From Methylococcaceae bacterium (lineage in GTDB: Bacteria; Pseudomonadota; Gammaproteobacteria; Methylococcales; Methylomonadaceae): 37,726 nt of DNA. Location of the stretch: NCBI GenBank assembly GCA_947504985.1, contig CANNKH010000004.1, positions 1 to 37,726 on the forward strand, in the 5' to 3' direction. Positions within the stretch are counted from its first letter, which is position 1, and every line of letters begins with the position of its first letter. Shown here piece after piece: positions 12,388 through 34,099 of the stretch. The notes under the pieces are model-generated. The model worked only from the letters and a program-made list of their open reading frames with translations. It was not told where the DNA came from and did no database searches. The translations under genes and the position numbers were made by a program.

Positions 12388-13209
12388 TTATGTTTTAAAT
12401 TGATGTAAGATAGATCTCGCGTTACCCCAGCTTGTATTTTCAATAATATCTGGTGACGAATTATTTAAAATTGTTGCCAAAATAACTTCTCTTGCGTCAT
12501 GACTGACTGAATGACGATTTTTTCCTGATGAATTAACTGTAGGAAGAAAGCTTAGATGCACCTCTATTTTGTCTAAGCTAAGAATTTTTATTAAATGCGG
12601 AACAAAAGCATCATCGCCAACAAAAGGCGCTTGTTCTTTGGCTAAACCTTGATATTGAATGGCAGTCGGCTGAATCACAGACTTGGTCAACAATGCTGGC
12701 TGGAATAATGAAGCATGAAAACTTAGAACGCTATCGCCTTTCGTCGTAGTCCCTTCAGGAAAGGCGATAATGTTGCTATTTTGTTTTAACAACCAAACCA
12801 TTTTTTCGGCGGTAGCCATAATATGTTTTTTATCGCCACGACGAATAAATATAGTACCTGCCTGCCGAGCTAAAAAACCTATTACCGGCCAGCTTAAGAT
12901 ATCGCTTTTAGCAACAAAATACGCAGGAAGATATTGACCAATAACAACAATATCTAGCCAAGAAATGTGATTACTGACGATTATAGCTGGTTGTTCAGGC
13001 AATTCACCTTCTTTGACAATTTGTAGATTTATAATCAGCCCAAACCATCTTAGCCATTGTTTTTTTATTAAATCTCGCCTGATTCTGGCTTTGCTGGCTA
13101 CTAAAAATAAGTTTATTACCGGAAAAATAACTATCGCATTAATAAAACCAATAATAAAAAGAAGCGCAATCAGAAAAAGCTTATAAAGCAGCCGTATTTT
13201 CAATTTCAT
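12388..13209 (-). CDS. olsA: 1-acyl-sn-glycerol-3-phosphate acyltransferase family; likely lyso-ornithine lipid O-acyltransferase
   Basis: PlsC motifs SNHISWLDIVV, FIRRGDK, FPEGTTTKGDSVLSFHASLF; directly downstream of and overlapping olsB. Confidence 0.85.
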   Translation of the reverse strand: MKLKIRLLYKLFLIALLFIIGFINAIVIFPVINLFLVASKARIRRDLIKKQWLRWFGLIINLQIVKEGELPEQPAIIVSNHISWLDIVVIGQYLPAYFVAKSDILSWPVIGFLARQAGTIFIRRGDKKHIMATAEKMVWLLKQNSNIIAFPEGTTTKGDSVLSFHASLFQPALLTKSVIQPTAIQYQGLAKEQAPFVGDDAFVPHLIKILSLDKIEVHLSFLPTVNSSGKNRHSVSHDAREVILATILNNSSPDIIENTSWGNARSILHQFKT

Positions 13210-13972
13210 GACCCGCCTGATAATCTCTCATATAATGTCTGCTATAACGCTCTTGCAATTGATCTAAAGGCAATAATACGAATAAATCCATGCAGTTAAA
13301 GTCTTCATCCCAACAAGGCTCACCACAAATTAATGCACCGAATCGTAAATAAGCCTTAAGCAGCGGTGGAATCCCTGATTCATCTCTTCCACATCTTAAA
13401 ACACTAGGAACGGGAGTATTTGGAGTTACTTGAATTGATGTTGGTGCAATATTTTTAGCATCGATATTTCTATAAACGGCATCAACAGCAAAACCACTAG
13501 GGCCGGGGGTAATACTGGCGCAGCCTAGCAAATAATTAAACTGTCCTTTTAATGCATATTCAACCAGTGCTGACCATAATGTAGTCAATACTGCGCCGCC
13601 GCGATAATCAGGATCTACACAAGTCCGACCAATTTCTAAGAAACGTCCTGGTAATGCCAAAACTTGATCAAGATTAAATTCACTTTGAGAATAAAATCGA
13701 CCCAACCGTTCTGCTTGATTTTGTGTAAGCAATCTCGTGTACCCAACGATTTTATTATTTACATTGTCATAAACTATCAAATGATCACAATATTCATCCA
13801 CTTCATCGTGATCAAGTCCTTCTGACTCAGATTTAAGCTTTGCACCCATCTCTTTGGCAAAAACACGGTAACGTAATATTTGGGCTTCTTTTATCATCGC
13901 ATCTGAATCTGCGATAAAACATTCCAGCCGTTTAGCTGACTTGACTTGTACTTCGGCAGTGAGTTTTTTCAT
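13181..13972 (-). CDS. olsB: L-ornithine N-alpha-acyltransferase (GNAT-related, OlsB type)
   Basis: EAQILRYRVFAKEMGAKL, GLDHDEVDEYCDHLIVYD, EIGRTCVDPDYRGGAVLTTLW, CASITPG, PPLLKAYLRFGALICGEPCWDEDFNCMDLFVLL; start set to internal MKKLTAEV. Confidence 0.88.
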   Translation of the reverse strand: MKKLTAEVQVKSAKRLECFIADSDAMIKEAQILRYRVFAKEMGAKLKSESEGLDHDEVDEYCDHLIVYDNVNNKIVGYTRLLTQNQAERLGRFYSQSEFNLDQVLALPGRFLEIGRTCVDPDYRGGAVLTTLWSALVEYALKGQFNYLLGCASITPGPSGFAVDAVYRNIDAKNIAPTSIQVTPNTPVPSVLRCGRDESGIPPLLKAYLRFGALICGEPCWDEDFNCMDLFVLLPLDQLQERYSRHYMRDYQAGHEIENTAAL

Positions 13973-14000
13973 AGTTATCCATACGTTCAAAATAATCAGC

Positions 14001-14061
14001 TTGACAGAATAGTCATGCAAAATGTCAGTTTAATGACAAAACCATTAAAGTTAAATGACAG
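14001..14061 (-). promoter_or_regulatory. Candidate Pho-box array upstream of olsBA
   Basis: Minus-strand heptamers CTGTCAT (14055-14061), CTTTAAT (14044-14050), TTGTCAT (14033-14039), CTGACAT (14022-14028) at exact 11-bp period, plus CTGTCAA (14001-14007); TATTCT -10-like at 14006-14011. Confidence 0.55.
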
Positions 14062-14541: not shown

Positions 14542-15399
14542 TTATGCTGCAAACACAACCGCTGATTTCAATTTTTTCATGGCGTTTTGTTCCAGTTGTC
14601 GGATTCTCTCTGCAGAAACATTATAACGATCGGCGAGCTCATGTAAGGTGGCTTTTTTCTCTGACAGCCAACGGGATACAAGAATATCCAAACTCCGTTC
14701 ATCCAATGTTGCCATAGCAACACTGAGCAAGTCATGCTCATGCCCACCCCAATCTGCGTTTTCAAGCAGTACAGCCGGATCTGCACCATGTTGTTGAAGA
14801 TAATTTACAGGCGCAATGTAACTTTCATCATCTGATTCATCTGCTGACATATCAAATGACATATCCCTGTTACCTAGACGTTTCTCCATTTCATAAACAG
14901 CACTCACGTCAACATCCAAATCATTAGCAATGGCGGTAGCTTCATCGTTAGATAACCAACCTAAATCTTCTTTGGATTTGCGTAAATTAAAAAACAGCTT
15001 GCGTTGCGCTTTTGTAGTAGCAACTTTGACTATGCCCCAGTTTTTGATCACATATTCATGAATTTCAGCTTTAATCCAATGAACTGCAAATGAAACCAAG
15101 CGCACTCCCATGTCAGGATCAAAACGCTTGACTGCTTTCATCAAACCTACGTTGCCTTCCTGAATAATATCTGGCATTGACAACCCATAGCCACTGTAAC
15201 CTCTGGCAACGTGAACAACAAAACGCAAATTGGTCATGACTAATTCGCGTGCAGCGTCCAAATCACCATGATCTCTATACCGTAGCGTCAACTCACGTTC
15301 TTGTTCGACTGTCAATTTAGGCATCTGTCTAACAAGATTTAAATAGGCATCGAATGTTCCAACTGACAAATTAACAGGTAAAGCTAATGCGCTGCTCAT
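14542..15399 (-). CDS. rpoH: RNA polymerase sigma factor RpoH (sigma-32)
   Basis: GYGLSMPDIIQEGNVGLMKAVKRFDPDMGVRLVSFAVHWIKAEIHEYVIKNW, QRKLFFNLRKSK (RpoH box); start taken at MSSALALPV. Confidence 0.96.
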   Translation of the reverse strand: MSSALALPVNLSVGTFDAYLNLVRQMPKLTVEQERELTLRYRDHGDLDAARELVMTNLRFVVHVARGYSGYGLSMPDIIQEGNVGLMKAVKRFDPDMGVRLVSFAVHWIKAEIHEYVIKNWGIVKVATTKAQRKLFFNLRKSKEDLGWLSNDEATAIANDLDVDVSAVYEMEKRLGNRDMSFDMSADESDDESYIAPVNYLQQHGADPAVLLENADWGGHEHDLLSVAMATLDERSLDILVSRWLSEKKATLHELADRYNVSAERIRQLEQNAMKKLKSAVVFAA

Positions 15400-15437
15400 G
15401 ATGTATATCCCCACTTAAGTAAAAATTCAGTCGAATT

Positions 15438-15464
15438 CTAGCACTCCACCACAAAGAGTGCTAA
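15438..15464. promoter_or_regulatory. CIRCE-like element (HrcA operator) upstream of rpoH
   Basis: CTAGCACTC-N9-GAGTGCTAA; 17/18 match to CIRCE TTAGCACTC-N9-GAGTGCTAA with exact 9-nt spacer, 38 nt upstream of the rpoH ATG. Confidence 0.88.
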
Positions 15465-15480
15465 TAATTTTCGATAGTCT

Positions 15481-16512
15481 TTACATGGGCTTGGTATGTT
15501 GGAGTTGATACATTAAAACAGCCCACGACCCCAATACACCGAGCGTAGAGGATATAGCGATAAGCTCTAGTGTTTCACCGAAACCGAAAAACAATAAGTG
15601 AAAGTCCCCACCATACAGACCAGACAGATTTTCAACGGGCTGTCTTAATATCAGCATCATCACGGTCACAATAAACCAGGCAACGACTCCTGAAATAAAA
15701 CCTATCCAAAACCCTGTGTATAAAAAGGGGCGCTGAATAAATGCACAGGTAGCACCTACCAGTTTTGCAATAACCACTTCCTCATGGCGACTTTGTAACT
15801 CCAACCGAATCGTATTTCCTGCAATAAACAGTACCGCTAATCCTAACATTAGATTTAACAATGTTGCCGCACGCTGCGACACCGCCATAATTGACTGTAG
15901 CCGTTCTACCCATTTCATGTCTAATTGAGCAGAATCAACTTCTACTGACTGTTGAAAACCTTGCAACAAATTTTCGAGTCCCCGCGAGTTTTCAAGTGTA
16001 TCTTTAGGCAACACCTGAATAACAATAGGTAACGGATTTGTTTTTAATACCGTGATAGCTGAGCCAAAACCGCTATAGGTTTTAAATTCAGCTAAAGCTT
16101 GTTCTTTAGTGATTAATTTAACAGACTGAATACTCGGGTTTTGTCGAATACTATCCGCAAGCTGCTTGGCATGTGTTTCGGAAACCTCATCTTTCAAAAA
16201 CAATGAAATTTGTGCGCTAGTTTCTAAGTTTTCGGTTAATTGCTGAAGATTTGCCAATACTAGATAAAACCCACTAGCAAGCGAAATAGCTATCGACAAG
16301 ACGGCAATGGTCATCACCGAGTTGAACGGTGAAGCAACTAATCGCCCGAGACTTGAAAATAAAGCATGTGCATGAAGATCTCTATAAGCTTTTAATTTAT
16401 CAGCAAAATTACCACCTGCAATTGTAGTGCGGCGGGTATCTTGCCTCGTTGGTTTAGCATACCGAGGTTGCTTGACTTCTTGTGTCTGATGCCGCCTATG
16501 GATAGGTTTCAT
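15481..16512 (-). CDS. ftsX: Cell division protein FtsX
   Basis: Permease with FtsX extracellular domain; RLELQSRHEEVVIAKLVGATCAFIQRPFLYTGFWIG; adjacent to ftsE. Confidence 0.93.
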   Translation of the reverse strand: MKPIHRRHQTQEVKQPRYAKPTRQDTRRTTIAGGNFADKLKAYRDLHAHALFSSLGRLVASPFNSVMTIAVLSIAISLASGFYLVLANLQQLTENLETSAQISLFLKDEVSETHAKQLADSIRQNPSIQSVKLITKEQALAEFKTYSGFGSAITVLKTNPLPIVIQVLPKDTLENSRGLENLLQGFQQSVEVDSAQLDMKWVERLQSIMAVSQRAATLLNLMLGLAVLFIAGNTIRLELQSRHEEVVIAKLVGATCAFIQRPFLYTGFWIGFISGVVAWFIVTVMMLILRQPVENLSGLYGGDFHLLFFGFGETLELIAISSTLGVLGSWAVLMYQLQHTKPM

Positions 16513-32621: not shown

Positions 32622-33452
32622 TCAACAAACCGCACCGCGCACAAAAAGCAAAGCGCCGACATCAGTGTAGGCTTCCCCATGCAAACTTCCGGCAGGCGCC
32701 AATTGGTACTCACCTTCCCGCAACAAAATATCGCCGAGAAACATTTCGCCGGCAAGCATCATACATTCCTCGTTTTTAAGATGATGATGGCCTGCAACCG
32801 TTGCGCCCGGCTCCAAGCGATAAAAACAGGAAACCAGACTGCCGTCCGAATACAGCTCTTTTTTATACACACCCGCTTTGAGCTGTTGCCAACCCGCGTC
32901 ACCGGAAAAAACCGTTTGTGCATCGCCGCCGCTGAACGGCAATAGCCCACCCAACAGTTCGCGCATTACAGCAGCAGGATGGCCCAACGATGTGCCGCGC
33001 AGATACACCAACGCGCCCTGCCGCGATTGGATGTTGTCATGGCGACTGTCCGCAGGGGAGACATGATAATCAAAGAGACCCAGTTCCAGTTCGCCCATTT
33101 GCAAACCGCCGCGCAGCACGATGCCTTCTTCCAGCCAGTTATGGCGATGCACGGGCAAAGACGCACCTGCGGCAAATTCGATCAGCACCGAATTGCCCTG
33201 CGCCCCGTTCCACAATGTTTTAAACCGGATGCCGTCCCTGATAGCGTGCCACACGCCATCTTTCAACCTGACCGTCAACAGCCCGGCATGTTCGGTAATG
33301 CTGTGCGCCAAACGTTGCTGCAAGCGTCCAGTAATAGCCTCATGGCGCACGGCATCAGGCGAAATCGGCGCCAATGCGGCAGCCAATAAGCGGCTTAATT
33401 CGGCCTGTTCGAACAGGGCGGATTGATCTGGATATTCTGTTCTGCTATTCAT
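32622..33452 (-). CDS. ChrR-like (bicupin) candidate anti-sigma factor
   Basis: Two cupin repeats (ASLPVHRHNWLEEGIVLRGG; GATVAGHHHLKNEECMMLAGEM); 4-bp overlap with upstream ECF sigma gene. Confidence 0.82.
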   Translation of the reverse strand: MNSRTEYPDQSALFEQAELSRLLAAALAPISPDAVRHEAITGRLQQRLAHSITEHAGLLTVRLKDGVWHAIRDGIRFKTLWNGAQGNSVLIEFAAGASLPVHRHNWLEEGIVLRGGLQMGELELGLFDYHVSPADSRHDNIQSRQGALVYLRGTSLGHPAAVMRELLGGLLPFSGGDAQTVFSGDAGWQQLKAGVYKKELYSDGSLVSCFYRLEPGATVAGHHHLKNEECMMLAGEMFLGDILLREGEYQLAPAGSLHGEAYTDVGALLFVRGAVC

Positions 33453-34099
33453 AGTGAAGGATCGGCATCATCTGCCAGTGTTTGTCTGAGGCCAAGCAAC
33501 GTCCGCCGGATTTGGGATTTCACCGTCCCTAGCGGCAAGCCTGTATAGTCAGCGATCTCGTCGTGACTGATACCGCGAAAAAAAGCCAGTGCCAACAACT
33601 GGCGGGGGATTGGGTCAAGTTGCGCCAACGCGTCGTGGACACGACTGCCTTGTTGGACTGCCGCCAGTAAATCGTGGGGATTATCGCCGCCCGCCATTTC
33701 CATCACGGGCATAACCGATCCGCATTCAGCCGCATCAATCCGGCGCAACGCATCTAGGGCGCGGCTGCGGGCTATCGTCATGACCCAAGCCACCACGTTG
33801 CCGCGTACCGGATCGAAACGCGGCGCCTGTCGCCATACCTGCCAAAACGTATCTTCAGTGACTTCTTCCGCCAATTCCACGCAGCGCGTTATTCTCAGCG
33901 CGAGGCCATAAACCCGCTCCAGCAACTTGTCATAAAGCGCGGAAAACGCCGTTTGATCACGGTCTACTATGCGACCGATCAATTCCTGCAACAACTGCTG
34001 CCCGTCTGATTCCGTGCCGGAGGGTAGCCCAGCAGCATCAGCCCCCCTCGCTAATTCGCCGCCAGCCTTTCCGCTCATTTTGATTCCGTTATCATTCAA
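33449..34099 (-). CDS. ECF-type RNA polymerase sigma factor
   Basis: FSALYDKLLERVYGLALRITRCVELAEEVTEDTFWQVWRQAPRFDPVRGNVVAWVMTIARSRALDALRR and HDEIADYTGLPLGTVKSQIRRTLLGLR; TTG start. Confidence 0.93.
   Translation of the reverse strand: MNDNGIKMSGKAGGELARGADAAGLPSGTESDGQQLLQELIGRIVDRDQTAFSALYDKLLERVYGLALRITRCVELAEEVTEDTFWQVWRQAPRFDPVRGNVVAWVMTIARSRALDALRRIDAAECGSVMPVMEMAGGDNPHDLLAAVQQGSRVHDALAQLDPIPRQLLALAFFRGISHDEIADYTGLPLGTVKSQIRRTLLGLRQTLADDADPSL

Follow-up and report, generated by a model that had tools for sequence, protein, structure and literature searches.

The heat-shock sigma factor gene rpoH of a Methylococcaceae bacterium is preceded by a CIRCE element, which probably forms an HrcA operator overlapping the rpoH core promoter, with rpoH in an HrcA-repression circuit. 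HrcA control of rpoH is well supported by comparison between genomes, and what seems to be new is the architecture, in which the operator would overlap the core promoter of the gene and not lie in its 5' UTR.

The predicted operator occupies positions 15438-15464 of the window (the whole stretch of 37,726 nucleotides that was analysed), which read CTAGCACTC-CACCACAAA-GAGTGCTAA, with one mismatch to TTAGCACTC-N9-GAGTGCTAA in a pattern search; on the minus strand, towards rpoH, it reads TTAGCACTC-TTTGTGGTG-GAGTGCTAG. The inverted repeat typical of CIRCE and the HrcA regulon is therefore present at 17 of 18 arm positions with the exact 9-nt spacer, as a preliminary description of the sequence had reported. 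It is the sole CIRCE with up to three mismatches in the entire 37.7 kb, and 100 shuffles of the window sequence yielded none. The location given in the same description, between ftsX and rpoH and 38 nt before the rpoH start, also agrees with the coordinates: CIRCE lies 16 nt past ftsX (15481-16512, minus strand, TIGR00439 above the curated cut-off), the last base of the ftsX stop codon being 15481; a gap of 38 nt (15400-15437) separates the element from the rpoH ATG at 15399 on the minus strand. The rpoH gene (14545-15399, minus strand, 285 codons, stop codon at 14542-14544) scores above the curated cut-off of TIGR02392. Elsewhere in the window, an ECF-type sigma factor ORF is followed by a cupin-like ORF resembling a ChrR-type anti-sigma factor (32622-34099), and a pair of neighbouring minus-strand ORFs (12388-14020) resembles an OlsB-like and a PlsC-like acyltransferase, possibly for ornithine-lipid synthesis.

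The genome, a MAG that appears from named hits and gene content to belong to Methylococcales, is assembled into 321 contigs (2.9 Mb, 92.8% complete) and encodes hrcA on a different contig (TIGR00331, 308.9 bits against a cut-off of 197.2, E 5.7e-92); its product contains both Pfam HrcA domains, and a grpE-like gene comes after it. One further CIRCE with up to three mismatches is found in the assembly, upstream of hrcA, which suggests autoregulation, while a reversed control pattern searched over the assembly gave 0 matches. This second element sits behind a separate sigma-70-like promoter, TTGACA-N17-TATTTT, which is the usual layout. The preliminary description had proposed HrcA control of the sigma-32 gene, had advised a search for hrcA and other CIRCE sites, and had named the lack of hrcA from the genome as one ground for abandoning the idea; because hrcA is present, that ground falls away, and the proposal draws further support from the way in which the rpoH CIRCE tracks hrcA across genomes. 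A true rpoE above the cut-off is also encoded, followed by an RseA-like gene. Canonical groESL was not found in the assembly, so the full HrcA regulon, including any CIRCE at groESL, is not visible here. The single chaperonin found is a divergent GroEL-like protein of 561 aa without groES and below the TIGR02348 cut-off (G000:C29:2000-6941, L284); its neighbours are a small ORF and two more that are BLUF-like and reductase-like, and the region may correspond to the type of soluble methane monooxygenase cluster that includes an MmoG-like chaperonin.

Within the order Methylococcales, rpoH loci were fetched by protein similarity, the operator not being part of the query. In each of the first 30 loci rpoH is preceded by a CIRCE with 0-1 mismatch, which mostly ends about 20-45 nt before the start codon; an element of equal quality is found in seven of eight more distant loci, giving 37/38 in total. 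The arms are near invariant across these loci and show no compensatory changes, while the spacers vary. The exception, G036 (99% complete), is the only genome without hrcA among the 31 order genomes searched, and it contains no CIRCE, either at rpoH or anywhere else in the genome. Its congener G030 has both hrcA and the rpoH CIRCE, the latter with a longer leader than in the others. The site is thus lost where hrcA is lost, both in this pair and in the class-wide table below, and the natural loss in G036 is the best single argument that HrcA maintains the rpoH CIRCE.

Across the class, 369 evenly drawn gammaproteobacterial genomes were searched with a pattern combining the CIRCE core with an anchor in the rpoH coding sequence, placed at the appropriate distance. 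CIRCE precedes rpoH in 100 of them, from 67 families, and a control pattern over the same genomes found no match. This pattern fixes 12 arm positions, so that arm invariance in the class set is built into the search, a constraint that affects neither the order set nor the flanking columns. Genomes with the rpoH CIRCE encode hrcA in 94 of 100 cases, compared with 174 of the 269 others (Fisher p 1.3e-9), and at completeness of at least 90% and contamination of at most 5% the count is 79 of 80. In six class genomes that carry the rpoH CIRCE hrcA was not found, and five of these are 62-88% complete. G354, with 1.0 Mb and 96% completeness, keeps the element with hrcA not found, which points either to a gap in the assembly at hrcA or to a relic site. 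Among named genomes, at least 118 stretches with CIRCE before rpoH were found, and the matches listed include Nitrosomonas europaea, Pseudoalteromonas, Rheinheimera, Thioalkalivibrio, Silanimonas, Thauera, Polynucleobacter, Methylocaldum, Methylomonas and Crenothrix. In a phylum-wide sample 10 of 399 genomes match, nine of them within the same class; in one genome outside it (G492:C14:94591-94970) a CIRCE lies at rpoH distance without the -10 signature (TAATGA). Given the frequencies in order and class and a listing for Geobacter sulfurreducens from 2004, the rpoH CIRCE is neither rare nor wholly unknown. The preliminary description had set the site against the normal positions of CIRCE at groESL or hrcA/dnaK; the site at rpoH is real, but it is no oddity in Gammaproteobacteria.

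The placement of the operator with respect to the promoter emerges from an alignment on CIRCE of 136 non-redundant rpoH sites and 41 groES sites, the sequences being related to one another. In the rpoH profile the right arm merges with an extended -10 element, TGCTAAAAT, and continues as TGC-TAAAAT, with A at position 28 in 69%, A at 29 in 86% and T at 30 in 95% of sites; the variants TAATAT, TAGAAT, TAACAT and TAAACT all retain the TA...T signature. T at position 30 occurs in 130/136 rpoH sites but in 3/41 groES sites (p 9e-29), and the class sample gives 96/100 against 5/63. Conversely, TATnAT ends on CIRCE position 1 in 33 of 41 groES sites and in one of 136 rpoH sites, so the operator at groES covers the start region. 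A symmetric extension of the HrcA site was rejected as the cause of the flanking conservation, as the mirror position is not conserved (13/83), which argues that the flanking columns represent promoter and not repressor contact.

The window follows this profile. Its putative extended -10, TGCTAGAAT (TGC-TAGAAT, 15435-15443, minus strand), overlaps the right arm of CIRCE and resembles TGnTATAAT, with 5/6 positions and TG present, and a weak putative -35, TTAGCA (15459-15464, minus strand, 4/6 to TTGACA), lies inside the left arm at an 18-nt spacing. Together they form the sole sigma-70-like match (9/12) in 15300-15700, where 0.8 such matches are expected by chance; the single match is not significant alone, and the putative promoter is taken from the class-wide profile. 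Transcription would be expected to start at 15426-15428 on the minus strand, a purine-rich stretch 7-9 nt past the -10 that corresponds to profile columns 37-39.

A further set of elements surrounds CIRCE in many relatives. Upstream of the rpoH CIRCE, GGAACTT occupies positions -16 to -10 and is followed by 16 nt and TC-T-A/T-A, the TC of which belongs to the left arm. GGAACTT is the -35 box of RpoE (PMC8103513), and at least 5/7 of it is found at the exact offset in 74/136 rpoH sites, compared with 1.3% in shuffles and 0/41 groES sites. Over the 136 sites, this sigma-E -35 is linked to A at position 12 (p 1.7e-6). The linkage persists when the set is thinned at 85% RpoH identity (p 1.4e-4); at 75%, with 8 strong sites only, it no longer holds (p 0.23). 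Within the window, the promoter GGAACTT-N16-TCnnA is represented by poor elements, AGACTAT (15474-15480, minus strand, 3/7 to GGAACTT, apparently decayed) and TCTTT, and a sigma-E promoter in the window itself is therefore not supported. Because the extended -10 is clear and the sigma-E elements are poor, we propose HrcA repression of a sigma-70-type promoter in the window species, with the envelope-stress (sigma-E) input apparently lost. As the right arm doubles as extended -10, the left arm closes the sigma-E element in about half of the sites and the groES layout differs, HrcA would sit on the rpoH core promoter.

An explanation that would place the rpoH promoter elsewhere holds that HrcA acts mainly as a roadblock to ftsEX read-through into rpoH. 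The short distance from ftsX and the lack of a terminator-like site between ftsX and rpoH speak for it; we nevertheless consider it unlikely, since both the extended -10 and the sigma-E elements of the relatives coincide exactly with the operator, and CIRCE sites at groES lack them. Read-through also bears on the suggestion of the preliminary description that CIRCE may act in the 5' UTR of an ftsEX-rpoH transcript, which was rejected as the main mode of action, since a start set by the conserved -10 would lie about 10 nt past CIRCE. As the element most likely overlaps the promoter, it would enter RNA only on read-through. An action of CIRCE at the RNA level has been reported in other cases, and the strand towards rpoH does fold so that the palindrome forms a stem (z -2.0 versus shuffles). 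Nevertheless, a hairpin governing stability or thermosensing is very improbable here, as the near-invariant arms of the order set lack compensatory change while their spacers vary, the site disappears along with hrcA, and the start codon stays unpaired in the fold. The decay of the surrounding sigma-E elements might instead suggest that the palindrome is a relic, or arose by chance, and serves no function in the window species today, yet the arms have stayed intact at 17/18 despite a spacer that has diverged even from that of the nearest relative, G001, and hrcA is intact with its own CIRCE, which makes such a reading highly doubtful.

In the preferred circuit, with the operator on the core promoter, HrcA brought to its active form by GroEL would bind the palindrome and keep RNA polymerase off the extended -10 promoter TTAGCA-N18-TAGAAT with its TG. 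The GroEL-dependent folding of HrcA is established in other bacteria. Upon heat shock, unfolded proteins would titrate GroEL and HrcA would lose activity, so that rpoH and hrcA-grpE would be derepressed together; sigma-32 would then raise the chaperones, restoring HrcA and closing the loop. The left arm in many relatives also seems to hold the end of a sigma-E promoter, so that envelope stress would feed into the same operator.

Textbook sigma-32 control derives from E. coli, which lacks HrcA. By contrast, HrcA appears to control the sigma-32 gene at its core promoter in much of the class, nitrifiers, methanotrophs and marine genera among them. The two classical strategies of the heat-shock response would thereby be joined in a single circuit, whose architecture can be tested. 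The comparisons suggest that an HrcA switch controls the sigma-32 switch and that E. coli has lost this link.

Three known systems place this arrangement in context. CIRCE at groESL in the same class shares operator and regulator with the rpoH sites, but there the -10 precedes CIRCE, whereas at rpoH it is built from the right arm. In Geobacter sulfurreducens, a member of another phylum, a consensus CIRCE is listed at -51 of rpoH and another at hrcA-grpE-dnaK-dnaJ, and the HrcA-rpoH circuit proposed is the same as here (Rodionov et al. 2004, PMC545781, Table 8). The rpoH site is a prediction in that table, with no promoter overlap described there, and G. metallireducens is not listed with it (PMC545781). 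A literature search, in which prior art was incompletely covered, returned no report of CIRCE before rpoH besides that in G. sulfurreducens. E. coli has neither hrcA nor an rpoH CIRCE and carries TGAACTT-N16-TCTGA upstream of rpoH, which fits the known sigma-E promoter P3 (PMC8103513, PMC8745692). Its spacing equals that of the sigma-E elements found at the rpoH CIRCE of many relatives, and rpoH follows ftsX as in the window, although P3 lies further from the start codon. A tentative but plausible reconstruction is that the ancestral gammaproteobacterial rpoH region was a fused module with one HrcA operator over sigma-E and sigma-70 promoters, in which cytoplasmic chaperone status would gate the envelope-stress input to the sigma-32 gene; P3 of E. 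coli could then owe its origin to this module, as a remnant left after the loss of HrcA.
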